A stretch of 50,837 nucleotides of DNA from Luminiphilus sp. (GTDB taxonomy: Bacteria > Pseudomonadota > Gammaproteobacteria > Pseudomonadales > Halieaceae), in the NCBI GenBank assembly GCA_016779445.1, contig JADHNP010000010.1, positions 1 to 50,837 on the forward strand. The letters are read 5' to 3'. A program made the position numbers and the translations under genes. This document shows positions 8,657 through 38,718 of the stretch, piece by piece. Positions within the stretch are counted from its first letter, which is position 1. Each line of letters starts with the position of its first letter. The notes beneath the pieces were generated by a model. The model was not told the DNA's origin, searched no databases, and saw only the letters and a list, made by a program, of their open reading frames with translations.

Positions 8657-8799
8657 AATGGGTGCTCAGAGATATCAACATATCGGCGTTTTAATAACCG
8701 AGGCATGCTATTGGGGGCCTGCCGTGCCGCAATGTTGTCCTCGTAATTGTCGCCCTCTACCGAGCAATCGACACAGGCCCCCGGGACCGTTCAATCAAT

Positions 8800-10089
8800 A
8801 TGATTAACCCTTCGATTCCCACGCGCTGGCGACTTTTCAGCGTGCTGATTTTGCTCAGCTTTCTGTCGTATCTGATGCGCCAGAATATCCATGTGGCGGG
8901 GGAATTGATGATGCCCGAGCTGGGCATCAGCGAGCTAGAAATGGGCTGGATATACGCGGCCTTTATATGGGGCTATGCACTATTTCAGCTGCCTGGGGGC
9001 GTATTCGGCAAGTTAATAGGACCCCGTGTCGCGCTAACCAGCATCGGGCTTGTGTGGATGATAACCACAGGTTTAACCGGCTGGCTGCCGGGTCAGGTGT
9101 TTAGCAGTGGTTTCGGCGTCATTGGCTCCCTCATGGTCATACGCTTTGTGATGGGCATTGCTCACGCTCCTATCTACCCGATTCAAGGGGCAGTTGCGGA
9201 ACGATGGTTTCCGGTGGGTCAATGGGCGCTGCCGAATGCCGTGGGTAGCACCGGGTTAACGCTCGGCGCTGCCCTCGCGCAACCCCTGATCGCGATTATT
9301 ATGGTGTACTGGGGATGGCGCGTCTCTTTCTATCTTTTTATACCGCTGGGCCTGGCAGTCTTCTGGCTATGGTGGTGGTACGCCACCGACGAACCCTCCG
9401 CCCATCCAGCAATGTCACAAAATGAACTCGCCGAGATAGAGGCAGGCCGTGAGGCGCTCACACCTCATGTCGGCTCGGGCGCATGGACGCAGCTCATTCG
9501 CGACCGAAACACCCTCATGTTGGCCGCAGCTTACTTCGCGGAAAACTTTGTCTTCTATCTTTTTTTCACCTGGTTCTTCCACTACCTGGTGTCCGAACTC
9601 GGCTTTAGCATCCTCGAAACCGGTTTTCTCGCCTCGTTACCGTGGTTATGTGGCGCAGTCATGGCGTCAGTCGGTGGCTACCTCTGCGATACGCTTTGTG
9701 CAAAGTTCGGGCCCCGGCTGGGTTGCAGAGTTCCCGCTATCACCGGGCTGGTGGGTGCCGGCATTTTTTTATATCTCGGGCTCTACTCAAGCTCGCCTTA
9801 CGTCGCTGTTGCATTACTTTCGCTCTGCTTTGCCAGTACGCAATTCACTGAGGGCGCCTACTGGTCGGCACAAACCTATGTCGCTGGGCCCTACACTGCA
9901 CCCGCCTGCGGAGTGATGAATACCGGCGGAAATCTCGCGGGCATTGTGGTTGCCCCGCTCATGCCCTTTCTTGCAGGTCATATCGGCTGGGTCGCGGCTC
10001 TTTCAACCGGCTCCATTATGGCCTTCGTCGGAGCCGCGTTGTGGTTATTTATTCGTCCCGATGAGCCCTTCCAACCGCAATCAAAATAA
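8800..10089 (+). CDS. MFS transporter, anion:cation symporter-like
   Basis: The 429-residue product starts at ATG 8800 and has about twelve hydrophobic segments in two halves joined by a hydrophilic loop near residues 195-230. The first half begins LFSVLILLSFLSYLMRQNIHVAGELMMPELGISELEMGWIYAAFIWGYALFQLPGGVFG, the pattern of the ACS family (hexuronate, glucarate and phthalate carriers). It follows the Rieske gene in the same direction after 143 bases and probably imports the substrate of that pathway, which would favour a carboxylated compound. The substrate cannot be read directly. Confidence 0.83.
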   Translation: MINPSIPTRWRLFSVLILLSFLSYLMRQNIHVAGELMMPELGISELEMGWIYAAFIWGYALFQLPGGVFGKLIGPRVALTSIGLVWMITTGLTGWLPGQVFSSGFGVIGSLMVIRFVMGIAHAPIYPIQGAVAERWFPVGQWALPNAVGSTGLTLGAALAQPLIAIIMVYWGWRVSFYLFIPLGLAVFWLWWWYATDEPSAHPAMSQNELAEIEAGREALTPHVGSGAWTQLIRDRNTLMLAAAYFAENFVFYLFFTWFFHYLVSELGFSILETGFLASLPWLCGAVMASVGGYLCDTLCAKFGPRLGCRVPAITGLVGAGIFLYLGLYSSSPYVAVALLSLCFASTQFTEGAYWSAQTYVAGPYTAPACGVMNTGGNLAGIVVAPLMPFLAGHIGWVAALSTGSIMAFVGAALWLFIRPDEPFQPQSK

Positions 10090-15826: not shown

Positions 15827-17215
15827 CTAGAGCAAATCAAAGTCGTAGTTCACGATAATTCGAAAATCAAACATATCGTCCGAACCCGGGAAGGCGTCAT
15901 CTTGATTCACCCACGCTGCCCTCAGTCTTACCCAGACTTTCTCTGACCAGCCGCGGTTCAGGCGCCAGTCAACCGTCAGGTCCAACTCGCTGGCATCGGG
16001 GCTCGCGATGGGACCCGTATCTGGCGTGTCTCCCCAGACCATATTGGTGAACAGGCTCAACTTCCCTGCACCCACCTGACCAAAGTCATAGGAATAGCCC
16101 ACGGAGAAAGCATCCTCACCGGCGCGGTCAAAGTCGTTAATAATGATAGAGAGATAATTGGCGGGGTTGCCGTAAGGCTTCTGAATGTTGCCACCCTCGT
16201 CTGTAGTGCTGGCTGCGATCCGGAATTTTTGCCGGCCGGACACCCACTCAAGCCGGCCCGAGATCAAATGCGTTGAAAAATTGCCAATCAATTCCTGCCC
16301 CATACTGCGCTGTGAAGTCCAAGAGAGATCTGCCCACAAACTGGTCTCCCCTGAAAACGTAAAGCGTTTCTCTGCCTTGGCGAAAGTGGTATTGAACAAA
16401 TCTGGCGTGCGCTGGTGGAGCACGCCATAAACGGAGTTATCGGGCATCCGATATCGCACGCCCCAGAAGGTCAGTCCATCATCTGTGCCCTCAGCACCCG
16501 CCGCCTCCGACATAGAGATGAATTTATCGCTGTCTTTGTATTTGATCGCATTTACATAGCCCGCCATGTAAGCAAGGCCGTCGCCGGGTTTGTTGCCAAT
16601 GCCGACCGCTTCAAAGGTGTTTGGGATCATGCGAAGGTCGTGCTTGCCTAGGTACGGCAGATCGAGCGTTTGACGACCGACTCGAATACCGTGGTCACCG
16701 AAAAGGCGCACGGTCGCAAAAGCCTCGCTCACAACCGAAAAACCCTCGGGACCAGGCTTAAAAAGCTGGGTGCCATCTTTCTCTTCAGGACCATATAGCT
16801 TTTGCGAGGTTGCAAGCGTGGCACCAAGCCGAATACGGTCCTGCCACCAGCCCGATCGGAACTCCAGCCCGCCCCCGAGCGCCCACCCGGCGCGCGTATC
16901 AGCAACGTCGTAATCCCGATACAGGTAATAGGTTCGGGGCTTCAACACCAGCTCAGCACCCTCGAAGAACCACCTAGAGCGCACCTCATCAGTGCCAATC
17001 TCATCCATTTTGGTGTCCTGATTGGGCTCTTCGTCAATGACTCGATCACCCTCATCAGCGATTTCCTGAGCACAAAGATGGCCAGCAAAAGTAAGCGCTA
17101 AGCAAAATGGAATGAAACCCGAGAATAGTTCCCGACCATCATGAAAGCTGCGGTCGAGCGCCGTGTTAACACTTTGACCTGCAGTGGACGACAATAGACG
17201 ACTTTCCAACCTCAT
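15827..17215 (-). CDS. OprD-family outer-membrane porin
   Basis: The 462-residue product has a long N-terminal leader whose hydrophobic stretch LFSGFIPFCLALTFAGHLCAQ looks like a signal peptide beginning unusually far (about 30 residues) from the ATG. The mature chain alternates aromatic beta strands (FEGAELVLKPRTYYLYRDYD, GWALGGGLEFRSGWWQDRIRLGATLATSQKLYG). It includes VRLFGDHGIRVGRQTLDLPYLGKHDLRMIPNTFEAVGI, the OprD-type passage, and ends with a strand in VNYDFDLL. OprD porins admit small carboxylates, amino acids or peptides. The start overlaps the stop of the amidohydrolase gene by four bases (17212-17215), indicating translational coupling. Confidence 0.82.
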   Translation of the reverse strand: MRLESRLLSSTAGQSVNTALDRSFHDGRELFSGFIPFCLALTFAGHLCAQEIADEGDRVIDEEPNQDTKMDEIGTDEVRSRWFFEGAELVLKPRTYYLYRDYDVADTRAGWALGGGLEFRSGWWQDRIRLGATLATSQKLYGPEEKDGTQLFKPGPEGFSVVSEAFATVRLFGDHGIRVGRQTLDLPYLGKHDLRMIPNTFEAVGIGNKPGDGLAYMAGYVNAIKYKDSDKFISMSEAAGAEGTDDGLTFWGVRYRMPDNSVYGVLHQRTPDLFNTTFAKAEKRFTFSGETSLWADLSWTSQRSMGQELIGNFSTHLISGRLEWVSGRQKFRIAASTTDEGGNIQKPYGNPANYLSIIINDFDRAGEDAFSVGYSYDFGQVGAGKLSLFTNMVWGDTPDTGPIASPDASELDLTVDWRLNRGWSEKVWVRLRAAWVNQDDAFPGSDDMFDFRIIVNYDFDLL

Positions 17216-18417
17216 CTCGAAGGCTCATCTACTGAGCACAGCGCCGGCGCCTCATAGGGAATTTCCATTAATTCAAAATAATTTTGGCCCAGTGCAATGT
17301 TTCTGAAGGCGTCGTCCTCTAGGACTCGAAGCGCTCTACTCGTCACCTCCAACTCTCGGGCATAGTCCTCCCAAGTCTTGTAATCAGCGGCCACAAAATC
17401 GGTGCCAGGAAGAATGCGGGTGGAGTAGGCATTGAAGAAGGGCACAAAAATTTCGCCCCAGCGATGGTACGAGTTGTAGATCACATCCCAGGAAATATCT
17501 AGATACAAATTGGGATAAGCATCCAAACGCTCTCCCATCAAGCGCACGTGCTGCGCCGGACTCATCGTTGTCAGCTCTTTTGACAAACCCATATGGGCCC
17601 AGACAATTTTATTGTCGGGATAGCGCTCTAGAACGTAATCCATGAGGTGTAGGAATTCAGTCGGGTTGGCGTTATTGCCTAAGTCGGAATGCAATGTCAC
17701 GGGAATGCCGCGTTCACGAAAAACTGCCATGAATGGCGCCCAGGTATCAATGCTCTCTATTGTGGCCGGCTCAGCGTTATTCCCTAACAGGGCCTGCTTC
17801 ATAATATTGAGCTCACCCGACCAGGAAAACATGCCGGGAAACTCGCGATCATAAAGTTGAATCATCTCGACGGCATTTTCGGCCTGAGCAAGATCGATGA
17901 AGGTCATCGAAAGCGTAATGTGAACTTTATCGGGGTCATGGGCAGCAAGCTCCAGCCCATTCACAAAATCATTCTTGATACTGGGAGTAGCAGAGACCCC
18001 GGGACAATCGAGGTAATAGGCGCAATTGGCATCCAGTTGCAGCACCTGGCCGATACCAAAGTAGTTAATAAACCTGACCCCCAACCGGTCAAACGTCTCC
18101 CACAGATGCTGCGCATCCATTGCCGGACCACCAAAGGGTTTGGGATGAAAATGACTGTCGACCACGGCAGTATAGGGTTGAGCAGCGCGATCAAAGCAGT
18201 AGTCTCCCACTTCGCCGGGCCTGAAATGCGCCAGCGTATGATCCGGTGCGGGCAATTTTCTCCAGTCGAGCTCAGAGGCTGGCGCCACACTGGGGGGGAG
18301 CGTGGAGGACACCACATCACCAGCACCACTGGAGTCCACCGCAGCGCTGCTGGCGCATCCCAAAACTGAGCTCATTAAAAACGCGGGTAGCGCGCGCGTA
18401 ATCTGTTGGTAAACCAT
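17212..18417 (-). CDS. Lipoprotein amidohydrolase (amidohydrolase-2 family)
   Basis: The product is 401 residues from ATG 18417, which has GAGGT eight bases upstream; a longer frame from 18447 has no such support. The N-terminus is a lipoprotein signal, MVYQQITRALPAFLMSSVLGCAS, with the lipobox Cys at 21. The catalytic barrel starts at AVVDSHFHPKPFGG (metal-binding H-x-H). It continues with VTLHSDLGNN (His), KIVWAHMGLSK (His) and LPGTDFVA (Asp), giving the ligands expected of metal-dependent hydrolases or decarboxylases of Pfam PF04909. A periplasm-facing, membrane-anchored member is unusual for a family that is mostly cytosolic. It is coupled to the OprD-like porin and probably hydrolyses a compound entering through it. 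Confidence 0.83.
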   Translation of the reverse strand: MVYQQITRALPAFLMSSVLGCASSAAVDSSGAGDVVSSTLPPSVAPASELDWRKLPAPDHTLAHFRPGEVGDYCFDRAAQPYTAVVDSHFHPKPFGGPAMDAQHLWETFDRLGVRFINYFGIGQVLQLDANCAYYLDCPGVSATPSIKNDFVNGLELAAHDPDKVHITLSMTFIDLAQAENAVEMIQLYDREFPGMFSWSGELNIMKQALLGNNAEPATIESIDTWAPFMAVFRERGIPVTLHSDLGNNANPTEFLHLMDYVLERYPDNKIVWAHMGLSKELTTMSPAQHVRLMGERLDAYPNLYLDISWDVIYNSYHRWGEIFVPFFNAYSTRILPGTDFVAADYKTWEDYARELEVTSRALRVLEDDAFRNIALGQNYFELMEIPYEAPALCSVDEPSR

Positions 18418-27952: not shown

Positions 27953-27971
27953 AACGATATAGTGTATCTTT
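27953..27971. promoter_or_regulatory. Putative Zur operator upstream of zur
   Basis: AACGATATAGTGTATCTTT contains the core palindrome GATATAGTGTATC (27956-27968), about 40 bases before the zur start. It matches two other sites in this locus (30179-30195 and 33829-33847), and resembles the gammaproteobacterial Zur box ATGTTATA-n-TATAACAT. It suggests autoregulation. Confidence 0.65.
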
Positions 27972-28007
27972 TACTCCCTCTGATTATGACGGGCCGCATT
28001 ACCAGAC

Positions 28008-28469
28008 ATGCTTGATTACGAGAAAGCAATCTCGGTTGCTGAACAAAAATGTGCTGACCGAGGAATCAGATTTACCCGCCGACGCAAGCAGGTATTGGCC
28101 GTACTCATCAAGGCTGATGCTGCTCTTTCGGCCTATGAAATAGCCGAATTATGCGACGCCGATGGTGACAGCAAAATGCCTGCAATGTCGGTGTATCGCA
28201 TACTGGAGCTATTACAGGATGGAAACCTTATTCACAGACTAGAGCTCGCTAATAAATACGTATCGTGCTCTCATATTTCCTGCTCGCATAAGCACAAGCA
28301 GTCACAGTTTCTCATCTGCGATAGTTGTCGACATGTTGAGGAGATAGATCTCTCGAGCGAAGCAGTTGATGCTTTGAGAGTCGCAGCCAGTGCTGCTGGC
28401 TTCAATTCGATCAGCTCTCAGTTGGAAATCAAAGGATGGTGCGCACAGTGCCAACCAAGCAGAAACTGA
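28008..28469 (+). CDS. zur: Fur-family transcriptional repressor, probably Zur
   Basis: The 153-residue product starts at ATG 28008. The winged-helix half includes RGIRFTRRRKQVLAVLIKADAALSAYEIAELC and MSVYRILELLQDGNLIHRLE, typical of Fur-family DNA-binding domains. The dimer/metal half has CSHISCSHKHKQSQFLICDSCRHVEEIDL and a final CAQC, so the two CxxC pairs of the structural zinc site are present. Zur rather than Fur is inferred from the neighbours, which are nearly all zinc-uptake and zinc-allocation genes, and from the palindromes upstream of three units. It heads an operon with the MerC-like and ZrgA-like genes (11-base gap, then overlap). Confidence 0.88.
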   Translation: MLDYEKAISVAEQKCADRGIRFTRRRKQVLAVLIKADAALSAYEIAELCDADGDSKMPAMSVYRILELLQDGNLIHRLELANKYVSCSHISCSHKHKQSQFLICDSCRHVEEIDLSSEAVDALRVAASAAGFNSISSQLEIKGWCAQCQPSRN

Positions 28470-28480
28470 GGTAAATCTTC

Positions 28481-28897
28481 ATGATTCATCAGACGACATT
28501 GAGGCCAGCAGCCGACAAAGCAGCTATCAGCCTTTCTGCGCTTTGCGCTGTGCACTGCTTGATTTTACCCGTAGCGGTGTCACTTTATCCGTCAGTGGTT
28601 CTCATGGCATTGCAGGATGAAAAAGTTCACCTCGCCCTACTGATATCTGTTATTCCCATAAGCATCTTTTCCCTGACCATGGGCTGCAAAAAACATAGAC
28701 AAACCTTGATAGTAGGTCTGGGGCTGACAGGTATATTGCTTCTCGTTATGTCTGCGCTGTTCGGCGGTGATTTGGGTGGCTCGCGTTTGGAGGTGGCCGG
28801 CACACTTATGGGGTCCGTCGTCATTGCATTGAGCCACGCATTGAACTTCAAACTCTGCCGATCTTCACGCACTTGCGGAGAAAATCATGATTGCTAG
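28481..28897 (+). CDS. MerC-domain membrane protein
   Basis: The 138-residue protein starts at ATG 28481 with GAGG upstream. About four hydrophobic helices are visible (ISLSALCAVHCLILPVAVSLY, VHLALLISVIPISIFSLTMGC, TLIVGLGLTGILLLVMSALF, LEVAGTLMGSVVIALSHALNF). The ALCAVHC-P motif in helix 1 is the MerC-like metal-binding Cys pair, and the tail CRSSRTCGENHDC adds three Cys and a His. MerC proteins move Hg(II), but family members in Zur operons are thought to act with zinc. It overlaps the next gene by 11 bases. Confidence 0.83.
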   Translation: MIHQTTLRPAADKAAISLSALCAVHCLILPVAVSLYPSVVLMALQDEKVHLALLISVIPISIFSLTMGCKKHRQTLIVGLGLTGILLLVMSALFGGDLGGSRLEVAGTLMGSVVIALSHALNFKLCRSSRTCGENHDC

Positions 28898-29525
28898 GCG
28901 CGTCCCGATTGCTGTGCGTCTTTTGGTATTCAGCGCCGCTGCAATTGAATCGGCCTATATTTGGGCAGCGGGCGGCCTGCATGAGCATGGCGTTGCAACG
29001 TTACTTCTATCCGCGGAAGGACAGAATGTTCAGGTAGAGGTTACCTTGCCAGCCGAGAGTGTGGTGGGTTTCGAGACCGAATATGCCACCACTGAGCAAA
29101 GAGAAACCGTTGAGCAGGCGCGAACTGCTTTACTGGTGCCGAGTCACTTATTCGTTTTACATGGCAACACCTGCGCGCTAACTGATGCCACGGTTGATGT
29201 CGGATCCATCTTGGGAGCAAGCCAGTCTGCATCCGAAGAGCCTCATCAAAAAGATCACGAACATGAGGACCTGGAATCAGCATTAGATGACCACAAGCAT
29301 TCTATTCATGATGAAGATGCTGAAAGCGCCCCGAACTCCCACAGCGATATTTCGGTCTCATATCGCTTTGAGTGTGAAAGTGATGAGGCAATAACGCGGG
29401 TCGCCTTCGGAACTGATCAACTGCCTTTTGGTTTAGAGCGAATCGACGTCTTATGGGTCGCAGACTGGGGTCAAGGCGCGGCGCAGGCTTTGCCAGAAAC
29501 ACCTCAGGTCACGTTACAAAACTGA
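28887..29525 (+). CDS. zrgA: ZrgA-like zinc uptake protein (DUF2796)
   Basis: The 212-residue exported protein has a short N-terminal hydrophobic signal. It then begins GGLHEHGVATLLLSAEGQNVQVEVTLPAESVVGFE, the usual opening of the DUF2796/ZrgA family. A His/Asp/Glu-rich linker (about residues 115-155: EEPHQKDHEHEDLESALDDHKHSIHDEDAESAPNSH is read in short pieces as HEHED, DDHKHS, HDEDAE) would bind zinc in the periplasm. YRFECESDEAITRVAFG and a C-terminal QVTLQN complete the domain. In Vibrio the Zrg system is a second, ZnuABC-independent zinc importer. It is the last gene of the zur operon and convergent with the DUF3299 gene (4-base gap). Confidence 0.83.
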   Translation: MIARRVPIAVRLLVFSAAAIESAYIWAAGGLHEHGVATLLLSAEGQNVQVEVTLPAESVVGFETEYATTEQRETVEQARTALLVPSHLFVLHGNTCALTDATVDVGSILGASQSASEEPHQKDHEHEDLESALDDHKHSIHDEDAESAPNSHSDISVSYRFECESDEAITRVAFGTDQLPFGLERIDVLWVADWGQGAAQALPETPQVTLQN

Positions 29526-29529
29526 CTGA

Positions 29530-30126
29530 TTACTCGCTGTAAGGCGACAACCGATGTAGTTTCATCGCGTAAGCAGATTTAGCCATGTCATTTTCTGTGA
29601 TGGTTGTCGCGATTTGACCCTCCAGCCAAAACGGTTCGTACAAAGCAGACATCTGCACACCGTTGGGAGCATTTACCAGAATAATTTGGTTGGGCGGCGG
29701 CGGCGGCATGTGCAGGCATGCTCCAAAGTAGGGGACCAAAAAAAACTGACTGATAGTTTGTTCCTCATCGAATTCGAGCGGCACCACAAAACCGGGAATC
29801 CGAATCTTTTGGCCATCCAAGACTGGATTCACATCCGTTGATGCCAAGGCCTGCTGATATATATCTTCCTCTTCTTCTACCAGAGTGTTCTTTATCTGGC
29901 TGGCAATTTGATCCTCGTCAGAGCCATCTTCGATCTCAGCGATATAGCTTGGGGGGTTCAGCAGGATCTTCAATACCTCCGATGGAATCAGGTCAACCCA
30001 TTCAACGGTCTTGAATTCCGGCTCCGCCTCGGAACCGCTGAGGTCACCCTGCGCCCAGACGAAGCTGCCAAAACCAAGAAGTTGTATGAATCCGATCCAC
30101 CAAAAAGTTTTTGAGATTACCTTCAC
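29530..30126 (-). CDS. DUF3299 exported protein of the Zrg-type zinc locus
   Basis: The 198-residue product has a signal peptide (FWWIGFIQLLGFGSFVWAQG). The core KIRIPGFVVPLEFDEEQTISQFFLVPYFGACLHMPPPPPNQIILV is the DUF3299 signature, with Cys and His (ACLH) that could bind metal. DUF3299 proteins accompany LolD/FtsX-like ABC genes and ZrgA homologues in Zur-controlled clusters. Its molecular role is not known. It is transcribed divergently from the ABC genes, and the operator-like palindrome at 30179-30195 lies between them. Confidence 0.85.
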   Translation of the reverse strand: MKVISKTFWWIGFIQLLGFGSFVWAQGDLSGSEAEPEFKTVEWVDLIPSEVLKILLNPPSYIAEIEDGSDEDQIASQIKNTLVEEEEDIYQQALASTDVNPVLDGQKIRIPGFVVPLEFDEEQTISQFFLVPYFGACLHMPPPPPNQIILVNAPNGVQMSALYEPFWLEGQIATTITENDMAKSAYAMKLHRLSPYSE

Positions 30127-30178
30127 TAAATGTCCCTCAAGTGCTGATCGCGCGCCAAACTAGATGACTGAATTCTAC

Positions 30179-30195
30179 ATGTTATAGAGTATCAT
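30179..30195. promoter_or_regulatory. Putative Zur operator between DUF3299 and ABC genes
   Basis: ATGTTATAGAGTATCAT shares 14 of 17 positions with the perfect palindrome at 33830-33846. It lies 53 bases from the start of the DUF3299 gene and 46 bases from the ABC ATPase start, so one site could control both divergent units. Confidence 0.65.
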
Positions 30196-30240
30196 TAAGC
30201 GAGATAATGGGGAGGGTCGTCACTCGACCAAGCATCGTTC

Positions 30241-30912
30241 ATGGCAGTGCAGCTTACTGGAATTCAATTTTCCTTTGGGGATGACCACCAGAGGCCGTTG
30301 CTTGATATTGATCACTGGGCCGTCCAACGTGGAGAAAGAGTACTTATCCACGGTCCCTCAGGCGTGGGTAAGTCGACCTTGATGAACATCTTGAGCGGTT
30401 TGTTGACTTGCGCCACTGGAGAAGTGTCGGTGCTGGGCCAGCGGCTGGATCAAATGTCGGTCAGACAGCGAGATCAATTCCGCGCCGACAATATTGGCTG
30501 TGTTTTTCAGCGATTTAATCTGATCCCATATCTGAATGCGATTGACAATATTGGACTGGCCAACACATTTTCCGCCGGCGGTAACGGTCGGTGGCGCGAG
30601 GAAGCGGCGGCACTACTTACCGCTTTGACGGTTCACAAAGATAGCTGGGCTAAACCCACATCAAATCTCAGCATGGGGCAACAGCAGCGAGTCGCTATTG
30701 CGCGAGCCCTCATCAACTCACCTGAGATTCTGATTGCTGATGAGCCCACCTCATCCCTGGATAGCGAAAATCGCGATAATTTTCTCTCCCTGCTAATGGG
30801 CCTGATTAAGGAGCGGGATATGACGCTGATATTTGTAAGTCACGACATGGCGTTGGCGAAGTATTTCACTCGCCTTGAAGCCCTATCTGATATTACAGAT
30901 AAACCGGACTAA
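30241..30912 (+). CDS. ABC transporter ATP-binding protein, LolD/MacB type (Zrg-like)
   Basis: The 223-residue ATPase has Walker A GPSGVGKST (about 38-46), Q-loop GCVFQRFNLIPYLNAIDNI, signature LSMGQQQR (about 143-150), Walker B ILIADEPTSSLD (about 164-175) and the switch His in FVSHDM. Its length and the NLIPYL pattern are those of LolD/MacB-type (type VII) ATPases, which drive mechanotransmission across the periplasm rather than classical import. It is four bases from the FtsX-like permease gene. In this context it probably energises the Zrg-like zinc uptake apparatus. Confidence 0.9.
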   Translation: MAVQLTGIQFSFGDDHQRPLLDIDHWAVQRGERVLIHGPSGVGKSTLMNILSGLLTCATGEVSVLGQRLDQMSVRQRDQFRADNIGCVFQRFNLIPYLNAIDNIGLANTFSAGGNGRWREEAAALLTALTVHKDSWAKPTSNLSMGQQQRVAIARALINSPEILIADEPTSSLDSENRDNFLSLLMGLIKERDMTLIFVSHDMALAKYFTRLEALSDITDKPD

Positions 30913-30915
30913 AAC

Positions 30916-32151
30916 ATGTTTCTGAAGGTAGCTACCAGTAGCTTAATGACCAGGAAGGGTTCTGCAGTGATGACCCTCATGGCCATTAGCGTCGCCATTT
31001 TTGTTTTGCTGGGCATTGAGCACATTCGCCAGCAGGCACGAGACAGTTTTGCGAGCACTGTATCCGGCGTTGATTTGATCGTCGGCGGCAAAACCGGTTC
31101 ACTGAACCTCCTGCTCTACTCCGTATTTCGAATCGGATCTCCCACCGACAACATCAGCTGGCAGGCCTACCAAGACATAGCGCAGCTGGAGGATGTCGCC
31201 TGGACGATCCCTATTTCGTTAGGTGACTCGCATGAAGGATATCGTGTGGTGGGTACGACACACGCGTTTTTTGAACATTACCATTTTGGCAGGAAACGCA
31301 GTCTTGCTTTTGCCGAGGGAGGCTCGTTTGCAGAGACCTTTGATGCAGTTTTGGGCGCAGAGGTGGCATCAGCTTTGGGTTATACCACCGGCACTGACAT
31401 TATCCTTGCTCATGGATTGGCAAGTACCAGCTTTACAAAACATGAAAGCAAGCCATTCGTTGTAGTGGGCGTATTAGCGCCTACGGGGACACCCGTGGAT
31501 CAAACGATACATGTCCATTTGGATGGCATTGAAGCGATGCATGCAGGTGTTGCTCGCGCACCAGTCTCCATTTTCAGTGCCGTAGGCAAAAACCAAGTCA
31601 CAGGATCGACTCCCGAGAGCATCACTGCCTTCATGCTTGGGCTTAATTCGAAGTTGAATACTTTCACTGTGCAGCGACAAGTCAATCAATTCAAAGGAGA
31701 GCCGCTCATGGCAATTTTGCCCGGCGTCGCTTTGTCTGAGCTCTGGCAGATGATGCGTATTTTTGAAAACGTACTCAGGTTGATTTCGACTCTTGTATTG
31801 CTGGCAGCTGTACTCGGCATGGGCGCTGTCCTGTTGGCATCCATAAGAGAGCGGCATCAGGAGATCCATCTGCTTCGCATCATGGGTGCTAGCCCGCTCT
31901 ACTTGTTCTGCCTCGTCGAAATGGAAGCCATCATTCTATGTTTGCTGGGGATGCTATTGGGCGGCACTAGCTTGTACGTGGCGCTGTTACTTTTAGGAGA
32001 CACAATGCTCTCTCGGTTCGGGCTGTATTTAGAGACCGATATCCTGACGCACGAGGGAGCGACGATACTTGGCGCGGTCCTGATTGCTACCCTTGTGGCC
32101 GCGGCCGCCCCCTCAGTAAAGATGTATACTGCTGCTAAGCAGGTGTCTTAG
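30916..32151 (+). CDS. FtsX-like ABC permease (Zrg-like)
   Basis: The 411-residue product has one N-terminal membrane helix (KGSAVMTLMAISVAIFVLLGI), a large periplasmic domain of about 230 residues (SFASTVSGVDLIVGGKTGSLNLLLYSVF...), and three C-terminal helices (LISTLVLLAAVLGMGAVLLASI, YLFCLVEMEAIILCLLGMLLGGTSLYVALLLL, EGATILGAVLIATLVAAAAPSVKMY). The RERHQEIHLLRIMGASPLYLF loop is the coupling signature of MacB/FtsX permeases. It pairs with the adjacent ATPase. The periplasmic domain would contact the exported partners (DUF3299, ZrgA-like, and the 150-residue protein downstream). Confidence 0.9.
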   Translation: MFLKVATSSLMTRKGSAVMTLMAISVAIFVLLGIEHIRQQARDSFASTVSGVDLIVGGKTGSLNLLLYSVFRIGSPTDNISWQAYQDIAQLEDVAWTIPISLGDSHEGYRVVGTTHAFFEHYHFGRKRSLAFAEGGSFAETFDAVLGAEVASALGYTTGTDIILAHGLASTSFTKHESKPFVVVGVLAPTGTPVDQTIHVHLDGIEAMHAGVARAPVSIFSAVGKNQVTGSTPESITAFMLGLNSKLNTFTVQRQVNQFKGEPLMAILPGVALSELWQMMRIFENVLRLISTLVLLAAVLGMGAVLLASIRERHQEIHLLRIMGASPLYLFCLVEMEAIILCLLGMLLGGTSLYVALLLLGDTMLSRFGLYLETDILTHEGATILGAVLIATLVAAAAPSVKMYTAAKQVS

Positions 32152-32200
32152 AAACGGCCCCTACTGCACAGCTGCGCCACCCGAAATTGGGAGTGTTGAT

Positions 32201-32653
32201 ATGAGCAAGCTATTCAAAATACTGATCGGCGTTTTACTTGTCGTCTTATCCAGCGGGTCTCACGCATGCTATGACCATCTGATGCTTAACCCTAACAACC
32301 TGGGCTTCGTTCAGGGCACTATCGCCCGCATGGCCGGCCTCGTCCCCCCAAAACCTGTCTTCGATGTTGCCCACCCCTCGATGGCGCGGGTTCAGGTGGG
32401 AGAGAAAAGCACGGTAACGATCAGCTTCTCCCGGCCGCTATTTTCAAAAAATGTGTCTCTCAAGGTCCGCGCAACCGAAAATGTGGTGCTTGATGCCGAT
32501 GAAATTGCCCTAGAGGACCGGTCAGGCAGCGTCAGCTTTGATTACGAGCTGACCGATGGCGCAAACTATGAGTCGATCATACTCACGATTACGGGAGAGC
32601 ATGACGGCAAGGTCGTCAATCAATCGTCGCAGATCTATATCCGAGGCGTTTAG
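32201..32653 (+). CDS. Small exported protein of the zinc locus, unknown function
   Basis: The 150-residue product starts at ATG 32201, 49 bases after the permease gene. A signal peptide (MSKLFKILIGVLLVVLSSGSHA) is followed by CYDHLMLNPNNLGFVQGTIARMAGLVPPKPVFDV, then a beta-rich region (VQVGEKSTVTISFSRPLFSKNVSLKVRATENVVLDADEIALED) that reads like an immunoglobulin-fold domain. Cys and His directly after the predicted cleavage site (ACYDHLM) are suggestive of metal binding. I do not recognise the family. Its position as the third gene of the ABC operon suggests a periplasmic partner of the permease. Confidence 0.75.
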   Translation: MSKLFKILIGVLLVVLSSGSHACYDHLMLNPNNLGFVQGTIARMAGLVPPKPVFDVAHPSMARVQVGEKSTVTISFSRPLFSKNVSLKVRATENVVLDADEIALEDRSGSVSFDYELTDGANYESIILTITGEHDGKVVNQSSQIYIRGV

Positions 32654-32688
32654 TCAGAACGATTCCTTAAACGTCTCACTCGCCTTGG

Positions 32689-33696
32689 TCATCGCGCCAC
32701 AAGACATTCCATCAGCGCCTCTTCCCATCTTGAATCTGAATCTGACTCTGCGGAGATAATTTCCAATCGACTCTCCATGCAGTCGTCGATGAGTATTTCC
32801 GAAAATGCAGGGCCACTGATGTTGTATCCAAAAATACCCGCGTCGGTAATCAATACCGCTTTAATTCGCTCAGCCCTCAATCCCTTCAGAAATGAAACCA
32901 CTTTGACGTAGCTAAATATTTTCTCAGCACTGAACCGCCACCCCTGACTCGTATATCCCTCCCCTGTGTTCGTGGCCCACAGAAACCCGCTATCAGGTAT
33001 CGGAACATCAGAGACCGAGGTGTAGTGAGAGCTTGGATGGTGTTGCACATTCGGTACTTGCAACCATGATGAACGACCATCAAGAAGGTCGAGACTCATG
33101 CTGCCGTACTCGGTGAGATGCATTGCTATGTTTGCGGCGCAATGATGATCCAAACATTTTCGCAACTCACCTAAATCTGACTCGGAGACCAAATCGGCTT
33201 TGTTAGCTAGGACCAGATCTGCCACCGCTAGCTGCTGAATGAAGCTTGGGTGATTCCGATGCTGCGCTTCATTGATACCGCGCGCATCAACTAACGCCAC
33301 CGTAGTGCGAAGCTCCAGCAGTCGCTGATAATGGTCGGTAGCCAGTACCCCCAACACTTCTGCCGGGTGCCCTAAACCGGTTGGCTCAATGATTAAGCGA
33401 TCAGGAGCGCCCAAAAAAAATATTTGGCTCAATGCCATCTCCAAAGGCAAGCCCGCAGCACAACACATGCAGCCGCCAGGGACCTCGAAGACCATGACAT
33501 CATCTCTTGGCGCTGATTGGCCCTTTATCAAACCGCGATCTACGCCAATTTCGCCGAACTCATTCACGAGTATTGCCCACTGCTCATGGTCAGGCTTTTG
33601 TTGCAAAAGGCTGAGGATCGCCGATGTTTTGCCGACGCCCAGGAATCCAGTAATGACATTGACGGGGGTCAGTTTTGACTTTTTGGGTAAATAGAT
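32689..33696 (-). CDS. COG0523-family zinc GTPase (CobW/ZigA-like) with apparent non-ATG/GTG/TTG start
   Basis: The first ordinary start in this frame is TTG 33606, which would delete the Walker A motif. The frame stays open to a stop at 33736-33738, and the extra codons encode LTPVNVITGFLGVGKTSAILSLL, the expected N-terminus. I placed the start at ATC 33696 because GGGAG lies seven bases upstream (33704-33708); CTG 33672 is the alternative. From 33696 the product is 335 residues, with Walker A at 17-24, CMCC (Cys76, 78, 79), EPTGLGHP, and NKADL for guanine recognition. COG0523 proteins deliver zinc to client enzymes under starvation. It is divergent from the receptor unit across a Zur-like palindrome. 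A sequence error at the start cannot be excluded. Confidence 0.75.
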   Translation of the reverse strand: MYLPKKSKLTPVNVITGFLGVGKTSAILSLLQQKPDHEQWAILVNEFGEIGVDRGLIKGQSAPRDDVMVFEVPGGCMCCAAGLPLEMALSQIFFLGAPDRLIIEPTGLGHPAEVLGVLATDHYQRLLELRTTVALVDARGINEAQHRNHPSFIQQLAVADLVLANKADLVSESDLGELRKCLDHHCAANIAMHLTEYGSMSLDLLDGRSSWLQVPNVQHHPSSHYTSVSDVPIPDSGFLWATNTGEGYTSQGWRFSAEKIFSYVKVVSFLKGLRAERIKAVLITDAGIFGYNISGPAFSEILIDDCMESRLEIISAESDSDSRWEEALMECLVAR

Positions 33697-33828
33697 AGCA
33701 ACGCTCCCAAAGCTAAGGGTTGCGACTGGTTTGAGTCACTTCTGACCGCAGATCGAGACGACTCAGCCGCTGTTCCGGTCACTTAATTGACATGCTTGTT
33801 GTGAGGGACTGCATTTTTTCTCCATATT

Positions 33829-33847
33829 TATGATATAATGTATCATA
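33829..33847. promoter_or_regulatory. Putative Zur operator, perfect palindrome
   Basis: TATGATATAATGTATCATA has perfect 7-base arms (TATGATA/TATCATA) around a 5-base centre. It lies 29 bases before the small Cys protein gene and about 132 bases from the COG0523 gene. Its TATAAT-containing left half could overlap a -10 element, which would give direct occlusion by the repressor. Confidence 0.72.
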
Positions 33848-33875
33848 TTATTGCTAACTTTGGCTGGAGCCCCGT

Positions 33876-34160
33876 TTGCCCCTGAGTAGCCACATTCGTT
33901 ATTCCTTACTGCTCGCTTTCTTAGTCGCGACGTCAATTCTGCACGCTTCGGCTTTCGACGCTGAACATCTCGGCCAAATCGACTGTGACAATCACATTTG
34001 TGCGCAATGTCAGCTACTGCCCGGAGATTGGTCACTACCTCAAGACGACTTCCAATCAACGCTGCAAGTGAACCACGCTTTCGCAAGGAGCGGATTCCCT
34101 ACTCGATCTTGCGTACCCACCGAACGTCATTTTTATGCGAGGGCGCCTCCTGCTCAGTGA
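33876..34160 (+). CDS. Small secreted Cys/His protein of the zinc locus
   Basis: The 94-residue product starts at TTG 33876, with GGAG six bases upstream. The signal peptide is IRYSLLLAFLVATSILHASAF. The mature protein begins FDAEHLGQIDCDNHICAQCQLL, a C-x5-C-x2-C cluster with His residues, and contains one further Cys and several His. It resembles the small DUF2946-like proteins that precede TonB receptors, but I cannot confirm the family. It is the first gene after the palindrome at 33829-33847 and 53 bases before the receptor gene, so it is likely cotranscribed and zinc-controlled. A zinc-binding or sensing role in the periplasm is inference. Confidence 0.7.
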   Translation: MPLSSHIRYSLLLAFLVATSILHASAFDAEHLGQIDCDNHICAQCQLLPGDWSLPQDDFQSTLQVNHAFARSGFPTRSCVPTERHFYARAPPAQ

Positions 34161-34213
34161 TCCGATTAGAGAGCCACTAATTTTCCACTGAACATTTAGT
34201 TAAGGAGGTCGGC

Positions 34214-36598
34214 ATGCGCCGCACCACAGCTCATGCACTCGCAGCACTTTATATGCTGCCTGTCGCAGCCATTGGCAACGAAGATACATTAACTGAGGAA
34301 GTGGTCGTCTCCGCTTCATTTACCGGGGTGACCGATCTTATGACGGCCCCTATTCACGTACTGAGCGGTGAGGATGTCGCGAGGGCGGGTGTTCAATCGC
34401 TCGGAGAGCACATTGACTCGCTGGTGGGCGTATCCACCGCCGACTTTGGTGCGGCCGCAGGTCAACCCATTCTCCGCGGGCTGAGCGGTACACGGGTCAA
34501 GGTGCTTAACAATGGCACCGTGATTAGGGACGTCTCAGGCCTGGGACCCGATCACGCAATCGACGCACCACTATCCGACCTCCAGCAAATTGAAGTCGTC
34601 CGTGGACCCTCTGCGCTCATGTATTCGAACGGTTCGGTCGGCGGAATTGTGAATATCGTTGATAACACAATACCAATGACTGATCTGGAAGGCTTTAGCG
34701 GGTTCTTGGGTGCCGAAGCACAATCGATCAACGACGGCGAAGCGATCGACCTTGGTCTCAGGGGCAATGTGGGTGGTTTCAACATCACTTACAGCTTTCA
34801 GGAGCAGGATCTGGAAAATTATGAGGTACCCGACAACGCGGTGCTTCATCTGGATGAAGAGCATGACGAAGAGCACCATGATGAAGAACATCATGAAGAG
34901 GACCACGACGAGGGTCATCACGACGAGCACGGCGAAACGGGTGAGCTAGCCAATTCGGACTTTGAATCCACTGCACACCGATTGGGTCTCTCCACGACAG
35001 GGGACTGGGGCTATGTAGGCGTCTCCTACAGCGATATTAATACTACTTATGGTATTCCCTTCCATGTTGAGCCTCCTGGTGGGCACGATGGTCATGAAGA
35101 AGATCACGATGACGAACATGAAGAAGATCACGAAGGAGAGCATGAGGGAGAAAATCATCACGATGAGCACGGTGAAGAGCGCGTTTACGCTGAAACTGAA
35201 TCTGAAACACTAGTTTTGAGAGGGTCTATCAACACCTCTTTGCCCTGGCTGAACTCTATTGACTTTGCGGTCAAAGATACCGATTACGAACTGTCTGAAG
35301 GGCACATGGAAGCCGAGCATGGTGATGAAGAGCATGAGGGCGAGGACCATGATGACCACGAGGGACATGGCGGAGCAGAGCATGGGCCTACTGTATTTAG
35401 CAACGAATCAACAGAACTTCAGATTGCGCTGGATTTGAGCTCTGGTGAACGGATTCGTCGCTTGGTATTCAATTATGCAGAAGAAGACATGTCCATCATT
35501 GGTGAAGAAGCTTTCATGGCCCCTGTAGATTCCACAGAAACAACATTGGGTTTCTTCAGCTCGGATGACTTAGGCTTTGCCACTCTCGATCTGGGCGTGC
35601 GTTTTGACCAAATCGAACGCGATGGCTTCGTTTCCGAGATGCACCACGACGAAGAACATGGCGAGCATGAGGATGAGCACGAAGAGGAAGATCACGACGA
35701 AGACCACCATGATGAGCATCACGAAGACGAAATGGTTTTCGAGCCTCAGTCCTTCAAGGAAGACGTATTCAGTGTGGCTGCCGCATTGAGCCGCAATCTG
35801 AATGACTACACTTCTGTCTCCCTTGGGTTGTCGAGTGTTGGCAAGGTTCCCTCGGCGATCGAGCTCTACATGAATGGCGAGCACTTGGCCACTAATCGCT
35901 ATGAAGTAGGGGATATCACCCTAGATACGGAGCGGGCTGACAGCGTTGATTTGACCTTCAGTTTTGAGGGTAACGGTTGGTACGGTAAAGCATCCGTGTA
36001 TCACAACCGGATCGACAACTACATCTACTTACGTGACGAGCTCGACGATGAGCACGACGCGCACATGGATGACCATGATGGCGAGGAAGAGCACGACGAT
36101 GAGCATCATGAAGAGGAGCATATTGATCACGGTGGCTTGATGTTGGCTGAATATAAGCAGCGAGACGCAGAGTTCACTGGCTACGAGATCGAAATTGGCA
36201 AGGTGATTGAGCTGCCTCGCGGAACCTTGCAACTGAGTCTTGCTCGTGACGAGGTCGAGGCGGAATTCTCAAACGGTGAGGACGTACCTCGAATCGTACC
36301 AGCGCGCAATATGTTGACTGCACGCTATACGCTGAATGACTTCTCTGCAAAAGTATTGGTGAAGGATGTCGAAAAGCAAACTAGTGTGGCCCCGGGCGAG
36401 TCGAACACCGATAGCTTTACGCTTGTGAGCGCTGATGCTTCCTGGTCTTACGGCTTCAGCGACTCAACGCGTCTCACTTTGACGGCCTTCGCTCGAAACC
36501 TGACTGATGAAGTGGCGCGCAATCATGCCTCTTTCGTTAAGAATGAGGTGCCACTGCCGGGTCGGAACGTGGGGGTCAGAGTCCAGCTGGACTTCTGA
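34214..36598 (+). CDS. TonB-dependent receptor with five His/Asp/Glu-rich insertions (ZnuD-like)
   Basis: The 794-residue product starts at ATG 34214 with GGAGG upstream. A signal peptide is followed by a TonB-box-like EEVVVSA. The plug domain carries VLSGEDVARAGVQSLGEHIDSLVGVSTADFGAAAGQPILRGLSGTRVKVLNNG, and IEVVRGPSALMYSNGSVGGIVNIVDN ends the plug. The barrel closes with a terminal Phe (VQLDF). Five low-complexity stretches of His, Asp and Glu occur at about residues 213-245, 290-325, 363-395, 475-510 and 608-640, all within predicted extracellular regions. ZnuD of Neisseria carries such zinc-capturing loops, but five is a large number. It imports zinc, or a zinc complex, across the outer membrane using TonB. 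A terminator follows. Confidence 0.92.
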   Translation: MRRTTAHALAALYMLPVAAIGNEDTLTEEVVVSASFTGVTDLMTAPIHVLSGEDVARAGVQSLGEHIDSLVGVSTADFGAAAGQPILRGLSGTRVKVLNNGTVIRDVSGLGPDHAIDAPLSDLQQIEVVRGPSALMYSNGSVGGIVNIVDNTIPMTDLEGFSGFLGAEAQSINDGEAIDLGLRGNVGGFNITYSFQEQDLENYEVPDNAVLHLDEEHDEEHHDEEHHEEDHDEGHHDEHGETGELANSDFESTAHRLGLSTTGDWGYVGVSYSDINTTYGIPFHVEPPGGHDGHEEDHDDEHEEDHEGEHEGENHHDEHGEERVYAETESETLVLRGSINTSLPWLNSIDFAVKDTDYELSEGHMEAEHGDEEHEGEDHDDHEGHGGAEHGPTVFSNESTELQIALDLSSGERIRRLVFNYAEEDMSIIGEEAFMAPVDSTETTLGFFSSDDLGFATLDLGVRFDQIERDGFVSEMHHDEEHGEHEDEHEEEDHDEDHHDEHHEDEMVFEPQSFKEDVFSVAAALSRNLNDYTSVSLGLSSVGKVPSAIELYMNGEHLATNRYEVGDITLDTERADSVDLTFSFEGNGWYGKASVYHNRIDNYIYLRDELDDEHDAHMDDHDGEEEHDDEHHEEEHIDHGGLMLAEYKQRDAEFTGYEIEIGKVIELPRGTLQLSLARDEVEAEFSNGEDVPRIVPARNMLTARYTLNDFSAKVLVKDVEKQTSVAPGESNTDSFTLVSADASWSYGFSDSTRLTLTAFARNLTDEVARNHASFVKNEVPLPGRNVGVRVQLDF

Positions 36599-36614
36599 TC
36601 GTTGACGTCAAAAC

Positions 36615-36654
36615 GGGTGGTGGATGAGGATATTGTCTTCATCATCACCCTTTC
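36615..36654 (+). terminator. Hairpin terminator after the TonB receptor gene
   Basis: GGGTGGTGGATGA (36615-36627) pairs almost completely with TCATCATCACCC (36639-36650), leaving an 11-base loop, and is followed by TTTCTG. The T-run is short, so termination may be partial and allow read-through into the downstream GTPase gene. Confidence 0.55.
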
Positions 36655-36811
36655 TGATCGGATAGCTAAAACACGGTGATCGAGCACTCGGATACTGGAT
36701 GCTTTCTAGAGCGGTGTGACAAACAGGCGTCATGTGGTCGCTTCTCTACTTCATTTGGTTCTTCATATTGATGTACCGGGCTCATCTCATGCAATTCGGG
36801 GTTACTACTAT

Positions 36812-38020
36812 ATGGATGTAAAAAATCGTTTACCTGTTACCGTCCTGTCAGGCTTTTTGGGTGCGGGAAAAACTACCGTCCTGAGTCACATTCTCAATAA
36901 CCGAGAGGGCAGAAAAGTAGCGGTCATCGTCAATGACATGAGTGAGATAAACATTGACTCTGCAATTGTCAAAAATGAGGTGACACTGAATCGCAGCGAG
37001 GAAAAACTGGTAGAGATGAGCAACGGCTGTATCTGCTGTACCTTGCGTGAAGACCTGCTGGAGGAGGTGCGGAATCTGGCTGCTCAAGGACGATTCGACT
37101 ACCTTGTGATTGAGTCTACGGGTATTTCCGAGCCTTTGCCGGTCGCCGAAACGTTCACCTTTGCAGACGATCAGGGTGTATCACTGTCTGATGTCGCGAC
37201 GCTCGACACGATGGTGACGGTGGTAGATGCGGTTAACTTCCTGAAGGACTACGAGGAAGCCAAGTTTCTGCAGGAGACGGGCGAATCCCTCGGCGAAGAC
37301 GATGAGCGCAGCGTCGCAGACCTGCTGGTCGACCAGGTGGAGTTTGCGGATGTCATCTTGCTCAGCAAGGTCGATCTGGCGGGTGAAGCTCAGGTTGAGC
37401 GACTAAGCGCCATTCTGAAAACACTCAACACTGATGCCGAGATCATTCCGATTGAGCACGGAGCTGTCGATCTTGAGGAAGTGATTGGCACAGAACGATT
37501 CAATTTTGAGCGTGCGCAACAGGCTCCTGGGTGGCTCAAAGAGATGCGGGGCGAGCACATACCAGAGACCGAAGAATATGGTATCGCCAGTTTCAGTTAT
37601 CTCGCCCGTAAGCCATTCCATCCAAAGAAATTTTTTGATTTTCTTCACGGCACTGAAGACTACGGAAAGTTGCTTCGATCGAAAGGCTACTTCTGGCTAG
37701 CAAGCCGGCCTGAATTTGCCGGGCAGTGGAGCCAAGCAGGAGGGATCGCCCGATATGGTTTCGGGGGTCGCTTCTGGTCGGCGGTTCCTCGCGCGCATTG
37801 GCCAGACGACCCGGATTATCTGTCGAGTATTGAACGAACCTGGGAGGAGCCTTTTGGTGATATGCGCCAGGAGCTGGTCTTTATTGGCCAGAACCTTGAT
37901 CAAAACAGAATCAAGCAAGCACTAGACGATTGCCTGCTCAGCGAAGATCAGCTGCTTAGGGGGCGACAGTTCTGGGAAACACTTGCAGATCCCTTCCCCG
38001 CTTGGGAGGAAGCGGCATGA
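36812..38020 (+). CDS. COG0523-family zinc GTPase (ZigA/ZagA-like)
   Basis: The product is 402 residues from ATG 36812 ([22 protein letters not shown]); the frame is open upstream to 36716 without homology-like sequence. Walker A is GFLGAGKTT (14-22), Cys73, Cys75 and Cys76 form the CxCC zinc motif (CICC), ESTGISEP gives the switch region, and SKVDL the guanine site. The C-terminal CobW domain includes [14 protein letters not shown]. The family acts as zinc metallochaperones, and this one is only distantly similar to the COG0523 protein at 32689-33696. Its stop overlaps the DUF1826 start (ATGA). I found no palindrome directly upstream, so control may come from read-through or an unseen site. 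Confidence 0.92.
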
Positions 38021-38718
38021 ATGCTCGTATGGGTGCACTCGACCGCACTGACAGCACCGCCTCGTCAACCGAGCGGAGCGCTGGCAAACGGCATATACGA
38101 GCAGCCATTGGCGGTGATGTGACGACACTGTCTGAGATCTATCACGACAATACCAATATCGCCATATGGCAGAGGCAGTTTTCAGATCAGGATTTAAGCG
38201 CTACCCAGTTACTACTAGAACGCGCTCCGGGATTGGCGCTAAACCTTATGGTGTCTCCCGAGCATGTTCACACAGAAATATCTCGGGTCTTGCCAGCGGA
38301 GCACTTGAACGCTCTGGCTCAGGATGTCACCCAACTTGCCGAGATGTTTTGCTTTTTGTTCGACCTGAAGCGTATCGGTCTGCGACTGAGCGCATTAGAT
38401 AGAGCGATGTGTCCAAGATTCCACGTTGATGCGGTCCCTTGTCGGCTAGTAACAACCTATGGCGGAGCCGGCACGCAGTGGCTGCCCCATACGACAGTAG
38501 ATCGCTCCAAGCTGGGAAGCGGTAGTCAGGGTTTGCCGGATAACGAATCAGGACTGTATAGCTCCGCAAATGATGTCCAAACCCTGAAACCGCGAGAGGT
38601 GGCGCTATTAAAAGGCGAGGCATGGTCTGGTAACGAGGGTGCCGGATTAGTCCATCGATCGCCGCCCTCCTCTCCGCGTGAACGCCGGTTATTATTAACG
38701 ATCGATTTTGGCCGATAG
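38017..38718 (+). CDS. DUF1826 protein of the zinc locus
   Basis: The product is 233 residues from ATG 38017, overlapping the GTPase stop by four bases. It includes [20 protein letters not shown], then [48 protein letters not shown], a Cys/His-rich passage, and [21 protein letters not shown]. These are DUF1826 signatures; the HVD...H-like spacing suggests a cupin-type metal site. DUF1826 genes commonly follow COG0523 GTPase genes under Zur control, but the biochemical role is unknown. A client or alternative metal-independent enzyme for zinc starvation is plausible. Confidence 0.85.

Follow-up and report, generated by a model that had tools for sequence, protein, structure and literature searches.

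A cluster of twelve genes, spanning positions 27956-38718 of a 50,837-nucleotide stretch of DNA from a Halieaceae draft genome (contig JADHNP010000010.1; the entire stretch is referred to as the window), is very probably a Zur-repressed zinc-starvation cluster, belonging to the Zrg/ZnuD/ZigA type as a marine variant. The genes and associated palindromes are listed in Table 1. An earlier description based on the letters alone (the sequence-only reading) had given the same gene order and families for positions 27953-38718 and had counted about ten genes; the cluster was borne out, although its genes number twelve. Likewise supported was the view of a compact Zur-type cluster without ZnuA/B/C, in that searches for ZnuA (PF01297) and ABC-3/ZnuB (PF00950) each gave 0 matches in the assembly holding the window, a draft of 2.47 Mb in 132 contigs that is 86.8% complete. 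The term "complete pathway" goes too far, given that a ZIP permease is encoded elsewhere and that the Zrg ABC pair of Pseudomonas aeruginosa has been read as an exporter (PMC11481552; here and below, published work is cited from excerpts of the papers named). Several parts had also been called uncharacterised, which would be an overstatement for ZrgA, ZrgE, ZigA and the ZnuD-like receptor, all of which match known proteins.

The zrgABCDE genes, ZnuD, ZigA and DUF1826 are published members of Zur regulons, and it is their arrangement here that is new. The cluster is well supported and mostly of a known kind, with the link between zur and merC and the fold of the DUF1826 protein being most worth following; within the zinc-starvation response, the cluster points to DUF1826 as a possible oxygenase, and it makes MerC a candidate for carrying zinc.

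Table 1. Genes and palindromes of the cluster, with their positions in the window and the evidence for each assignment.
Feature	Position	Strand	Evidence and remarks
Zur-type palindrome GATATAGTGTATC	27956..27968		Precedes zur-merC-zrgA; second-best motif match in window; relatives have similar sites before zur
Zur, Fur-family zinc repressor	28008..28469	+	PF01475 E=1.3e-12; NCBIfam Zur model E=5.1e-25; 4mtd E=2.8e-18
MerC-like membrane protein, CxxHC motif, candidate zinc carrier	28481..28897	+	PF03203 E=1.4e-26, over cut-off
ZrgA-family periplasmic zinc-binding protein	28887..29525	+	PF10986 E=1.2e-36, over cut-off; PA4063 structure 7ahw E=1.3e-11
ZrgE, DUF3299	29530..30126	-	PF11736 E=2.5e-46; structure 4hsp E=1.2e-29
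Degenerate Zur-type palindrome GTTATAGAGTATC	30181..30193		Between divergent zrgE and zrgC; third-best motif match in window
ZrgC, ABC ATPase	30241..30912	+	PF00005 E=7.1e-32
ZrgB, FtsX/MacB-type permease	30916..32151	+	FtsX and MacB_PCD domains; MacB structures E ~1e-3
P150, predicted secreted Ig-like protein, 150 residues	32201..32653	+	C23 and H26 directly after signal peptide
Second COG0523 GTPase	32689..33672	-	PF02492 E=8e-43; without CobW_C match; assumed start CTG
Zur-type palindrome GATATAATGTATC	33832..33844		Between GTPase and 94-residue/receptor genes; best motif match in window
94-residue protein, doubtful DUF2607 (ZrgD) relative	33876..34160	+	N-terminal hydrophobic stretch and Cys; PF10795 E=0.01
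ZnuD-like TonB-dependent receptor	34214..36598	+	His/Asp/Glu-rich stretches; NF038289 E=2.3e-65; ZnuD structure 4rdr E=2.4e-39
ZigA, COG0523 zinc metallochaperone GTPase	36812..38020	+	NF038288 693 bits, cut-off 600; start checked
DUF1826, predicted Fe(II)/2-oxoglutarate dioxygenase	38017..38718	+	PF08856 E=3.6e-60; start checked

Palindromic sites and conservation of the cluster

Fifty-nine sites in relatives served to build a motif matrix, the window and L049, a close relative, being excluded. When the 50.8-kb window was scanned with this matrix, the sites at 27956, 30181 and 33832 proved to be the top three (27.3, 22.3 and 12.3 bits from first to third rank, with 33832 first, 27956 second and 30181 third), followed by a fourth-ranked match of 10.9 bits. 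The Zrg genes are preceded by predicted Zur-type boxes at 27956 and, in weaker form, at 30181. A strict palindrome pattern was matched at 2 places in the entire assembly, namely, 27956 and 33832 (reversed control, 0). Across 48 loci of relatives (729 kb), 61 pattern matches were obtained (reversed control, 0), 54 of which lie near a cluster gene, no more than 400 bases ahead of its frame or 200 bases into it. As these loci were picked for holding clusters, from which the pattern in turn took its shape, the count reflects consistency and is not an unbiased test. Within the cluster, the overlap of merC and zrgA and that of the DUF1826 start with the zigA stop (ATGA) suggest coupled translation. 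When the region was scanned for generic promoters and terminators, no excess over shuffles was seen (3 vs. 10.4; 12 vs. 10.3).

The distribution of the cluster genes was considered in 140 genomes of the family, that of the window included; these drafts are incomplete, such that absence is weak evidence. ZrgA was found in 26 genomes, DUF3299 in 27, P150 in 20, DUF1826 in 29, MerC in 41, strong ABC-3 matches in 7 and ZIP in 128. ZrgA and DUF3299 occurred together in 25 genomes (25 of the 26 with ZrgA), all 26 ZrgA genomes also encoded MerC and 15 of them DUF1826, and MerC was present in 25 of the 29 DUF1826 genomes. The co-occurrence of MerC, DUF3299, DUF1826 and P150 with ZrgA, as the sequence-only reading would have it, lies well above background in these genomes when kinship is ignored. 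The tallies reflect trimming of the initial matches. The ZrgA count went from 30 to 26 (G017, G041 and G120 were below the cut-off; the short G054 was over it only with its neighbours), that of DUF3299 from 31 to 27 (G015, G027, G029 and G030 were over the cut-off but much weaker), that of MerC from 43 to 41 (G029 and G109 were below the cut-off) and that of ABC-3 from 19 to 7 (18 of the 19 were over the cut-off; the dropped rows had E values of 1e-12 or weaker, and G044, G049, G050 and G053 may be real). For DUF1826, all 29 rows were kept, including partial matches and two with an internal stop.

Several observations weigh against this reading of the cluster. Zur scores 88 bits against the NCBIfam Zur model (cut-off 167), ZrgA 89.6 bits against the NCBIfam ZrgA model (NF047873; equivalog cut-off 185) and the receptor 221.5 bits against NF038289 (ZnuD cut-off 950); all three being below the cut-offs, they are taken to be diverged members. 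Fisher values for co-occurrence (3e-6 to 3e-24) ignore kinship and are hence too small. Seven of the 61 boxes in relatives are placed elsewhere and, with two mismatches allowed, genome matches by strand number 62 and 46 (control, 21 and 24); of these matches, about twice the control, some weak sites may be real, with most being indistinguishable from chance. No box was found before zigA-DUF1826 in the window, the best 19-mer there ranking 130th in the matrix scan. Outside the family, 15 of the 70 MerC loci described below have no gene of the cluster set nearby. A ZIP permease is encoded elsewhere in the assembly (contig C70), so the main route of zinc import may lie outside the cluster, and the P. 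aeruginosa Zrg counterpart has been interpreted as a MacB-type pyochelin-cobalt exporter (PMC11481552).

The proposal that the cluster is the sole zinc importer was rejected, with ZIP being found in the assembly and across most of the family (128/140). As for further Zur targets in the assembly, the three one-mismatch sites elsewhere lie inside frames or at frame ends, where no zinc gene was recognized by eye. Control of the zigA-DUF1826 pair by Zur in the window genome, assumed earlier, is not supported, no box lying upstream; the gap before zigA contains a hairpin (z -2.6), and a box adjoins the zigA start in seven loci of relatives.

It is very improbable that a Fur-family regulator of another metal, i.e., iron or manganese, controls the cluster. 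The low score against the NCBIfam Zur model would agree with such control, as would the best structure match, 7dh7, titled only "Transcriptional regulator fur family," but the second and third matches are Escherichia coli Zur (4mtd) and a probable zinc uptake regulator, with Fur and PerR ranking behind. Moreover, the target families are mostly zinc-linked, and the boxes resemble Zur boxes such as the E. coli form. As judged by sequence, the window regulator is a diverged member of the Fur family close to solved Zur proteins. A Zur box has also been quoted for Vibrio (PMC9817125).

If the cluster indeed answers to zinc starvation under Zur, as the families, boxes and conservation read directly from the sequences suggest, then low zinc would cause Zur to leave the boxes at 27956, 30181 and 33832. 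The ZnuD-like receptor would carry zinc across the outer membrane, and ZrgA would bind zinc in the periplasm. Crossing of the inner membrane would involve the MerC-like carrier and/or ZrgBC, working with ZrgE and P150. The COG0523 GTPases would pass scarce zinc to client proteins, and DUF1826, a predicted Fe(II)/2-oxoglutarate dioxygenase, would somehow serve the starvation response.

The MerC-like protein as a neighbor of zur

The MerC-like protein scores 93.6 bits against PF03203, over the gathering cut-off of 27.6. Residues C22, H25, C26, H50, H72, H119 and C126 do not vary across alignment A4, which comprises 33 of the 36 available MerC sequences (L039, L040 and L180, the last of them diverged, were omitted, and L049 was dropped for unread bases). 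In 20 of the 26 ZrgA genomes, window included, zur lies directly beside merC. Besides that of the window, MerC loci were read with the profile in 36 of the 41 genomes (G011, G018, G027 and G048 gave no profile match in the stretch), revealing zur to be the immediate neighbor of merC in 28 and to lie in the same stretch in 34. Six relatives (G057, G058, G070, G078, G092 and G098) present a contiguous zur-merC-zigA-DUF1826 arrangement without adjoining zrg, with G070 carrying zrg on a different contig. In five relatives with neither Zrg nor a strong ABC-3 match, MerC is the only transporter within this arrangement, and a ZIP permease is found elsewhere.

The MerC profile matched 75 of 390 genomes of the order, 68 of which are outside the family. 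Among the 70 loci read there (two further places in G237 were left out), zur was present in 38, a box in 44 and at least one other gene of the cluster set in the stretch read in 55, and the CxxHC motif was kept in 69. MerC is a conserved member of the Zur cluster, an association that looks new. Among the titles listed in searches of the open-access literature, none concerned MerC under Zur; as judged from open papers only, novelty is provisional. Excerpts of open papers mentioning Zur and zinc contained no MerC-Zur link.

The MerC-like protein is proposed to be an inner-membrane zinc carrier. The branch of MerC that has CxxHC in the first helix and is linked to zur might, moreover, constitute a Zur-controlled zinc importer across the order of this bacterium, with Zrg possibly acting beside it and not as channel, a tentative idea whose chances fall a little short of even. 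For transport by MerE, another mercury carrier, Cys and His residues of the first helix are important (PMC5715351). In Stenotrophomonas maltophilia and its relatives, a distant merC has been reported next to a CobW-type gene; first-helix changes were noted in lung isolates, and a divergent role was suggested (PMC5253648). The notion that MerC replaces ZnuABC was rejected, strong ABC-3 matches being found in 4 of the 41 MerC genomes vs. 3 of the 99 others.

A role of the MerC-like protein in handling mercury or some other toxic metal, with its position next to zur being incidental, is unlikely. The family name points to such a role, and merC has been tied to mercury resistance and acquisition (PMC5253648). 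The Pfam MerC domain, matched over its cut-off, is shared with the MerC of mercury resistance operons. Unlike in those operons, however, the gene considered here lies beside zur, and family searches of the cluster revealed no mer genes among its members. The repeated adjacency of zur in relatives (28/36 loci) also argues against coincidence. When MerC was compared by tblastn with 72,556 plasmids at E 0.01, 8 records were obtained, and mer genes were absent from the five plasmid regions opened. In one of these, from an Alteromonadales plasmid, the MerC gene precedes those for DUF3299, an ABC ATPase and a permease; no such Zrg-type setting surrounds MerC in the other four. On a cyanobacterial plasmid (Tolypothrix; L286), the MerC relative adjoins an ArsR/SmtB regulator and a heavy-metal P-type ATPase, a setting in keeping with a toxic-metal role.

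Zrg components and the direction of transport

The ZrgA family (PF10986) protein of the window stands with an ABC ATPase and a MacB/FtsX-type permease, and matches the PA4063 structure. From its sequence, it is considered a ZrgA-family protein, with equivalog status being unsupported by the score. The NCBIfam models nearest to ZrgC are DevA, LolD and YbbA, all below their cut-offs. The receptor resembles the TonB-dependent zinc receptor ZnuD in matching the ZnuD structure by sequence and in its metal-ligand-rich stretches but, falling short of the ZnuD cut-off (221.5 of 950 bits), is named only ZnuD-like.

With zrgABCDE of Vibrio cholerae and V. parahaemolyticus and PA4063-PA4066 of P. aeruginosa, the cluster shares the ZrgA family, DUF3299, the ABC ATPase and the MacB-like permease. 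It differs in the addition of zur, merC, the second COG0523 GTPase, P150, the ZnuD-like receptor, zigA and DUF1826, in zrgE being on the opposite strand, in that no ZnuABC was found in the genome and in its doubtful ZrgD relation. The 94-residue protein scores 16.6 bits against PF10795 (DUF2607; cut-off 24, E=0.01), and two homologues give no match. Earlier grouped with the co-occurring genes, this protein was found in only two (G066 and G095) of the 31 loci first fetched, to which the search for it was confined.

Both zrgABCDE and its control by Zur have been published (PMC9820375, PMC9817125), with zrg genes being Zur-controlled in the Vibrio species named and in P. aeruginosa (PMC9817125, PMC11481552) and raised in V. 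parahaemolyticus when zinc is limiting (PMC9817125). The direction of Zrg transport, import or export, is disputed, and the window cluster does not settle it. Export of a metal-binding molecule by the ABC pair and the periplasmic proteins that work with it, with zinc entering via the MerC-like carrier or ZIP, carries appreciable weight yet stays distinctly short of an even chance. The permease is of the FtsX/MacB type, the P. aeruginosa counterpart is reported to resemble MacB in its model and to affect cobalt content (PMC11481552), and the stretches of the six relatives noted above have zur-merC-zigA-DUF1826 with no zrg alongside. By contrast, in a znuA background V. cholerae requires zrgA to grow normally when the medium is deficient in zinc (PMC9820375), which argues against export. 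A lineage in which Zrg is present, no ZnuABC was found and merC is tied to zur offers good ground for testing the disputed direction. Loci L173 (G014) and L180 (G015) each have a Zur cluster in which a diverged Zrg-type ABC pair is accompanied by MerC, ZigA and DUF1826, without a ZrgA match.

P150 begins with a signal-like stretch, just downstream of which C23 and H26 are invariant. Pfam matches were obtained only at E >=0.07, and the NCBIfam choice_anch_U match (E=0.0025) is below the cut-off. Its model is an Ig-like sandwich (predicted local distance difference test score, pLDDT, 84.9), weaker in the N-terminal part, and the fold matches are generic Ig-like sandwiches. P150 is predicted to be a Zrg-linked, Ig-like secreted protein. 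Of the 20 family genomes encoding P150, 19 also have ZrgA, and in 15 (one split) the gene follows zrgB on the same strand. P150 was found in 8 of the 390 genomes of the order, three of them outside the family. A strict bond to Zrg was rejected: in G038, G039, G040 and the three other-family genomes, P150 is separate from Zrg and its stretch contains no box, and two of the latter three have a zur-merC-zrg cluster elsewhere. A contig scan with one short pattern, of low recall, revealed at least 10 P150 loci, nine in Halieaceae-named records and one in HTCC2148. G028, taken to be HTCC2148, a cultured marine gammaproteobacterium, has the order zrgA-merC-GTPase-zrgE-zrgC-zrgB-P150-zur. By P150, the nearest named relative, a Halieaceae draft genome, is 92% identical. 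In L041 (G095; 16172-17913), the genes for ZrgB and P150 both fall into two frames, maybe reflecting sequencing error or decay.

DUF1826 and the COG0523 GTPases

In the DUF1826 protein, H135, D137, H212 and R223 are invariant in 19 sequences (numbering omits the first Met), the spacing of the Fe(II)/2-oxoglutarate dioxygenase HxD...H triad with an Arg ~11 residues after the last His. When the model (pLDDT 88.7) was compared with the PDB, 208 matches at E<=0.001 were obtained, the best 50 of which all belong by title to the Fe(II)/2-oxoglutarate superfamily (ACC oxidase included). These 50 present E values of 4e-6 to 7e-5, template modeling scores by query length of 0.34-0.50 and root-mean-square deviations of 5.9-13.2, i.e., a loose fit. 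No sequence link to a known oxygenase family was found in Pfam (19 members) or among PDB sequences. DUF1826 is accordingly only predicted, from conserved residues and modeled fold, to be an Fe(II)/2-oxoglutarate dioxygenase, apparently a new reading: the oxygenase label was not found in excerpts of open papers naming DUF1826, one of which describes the domain as present in predicted succinylglutamate desuccinylases.

ZigA, scoring over the curated NF038288 cut-off, is clearly assigned. COG0523-DUF1826 genes have been drawn in Zur clusters (Haas et al., 2009, PMC2770081, Figure 4 legend), and P. aeruginosa PA5534 (DUF1826) is listed in the Zur regulon and rises with N-acetylcysteine, which was read as zinc chelation (PMC9431628). 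The window pair is like these clusters and PA5534-PA5535 in having a COG0523 GTPase beside DUF1826 but differs in the company of merC and zur and in that no box was found directly upstream.

For the second GTPase, no ATG, GTG or TTG lies between the upstream stop and the P-loop, such that, in the region 33606-33684 (minus strand), the P-loop is upstream of the first such codon. An ATG just precedes the P-loop in G090, G093 and G094; the window and G066 lack it, having a nearby CTG instead. G066 also has a TTG further up, and G067 has none in the stretch read. In L042 (G028; ~8632-9524), DUF1826 beside zrgA is interrupted by a stop. L035, L056 and L053 encode a second, diverged DUF1826 that keeps the HxD...H residues and has a Zur-type box at its start.

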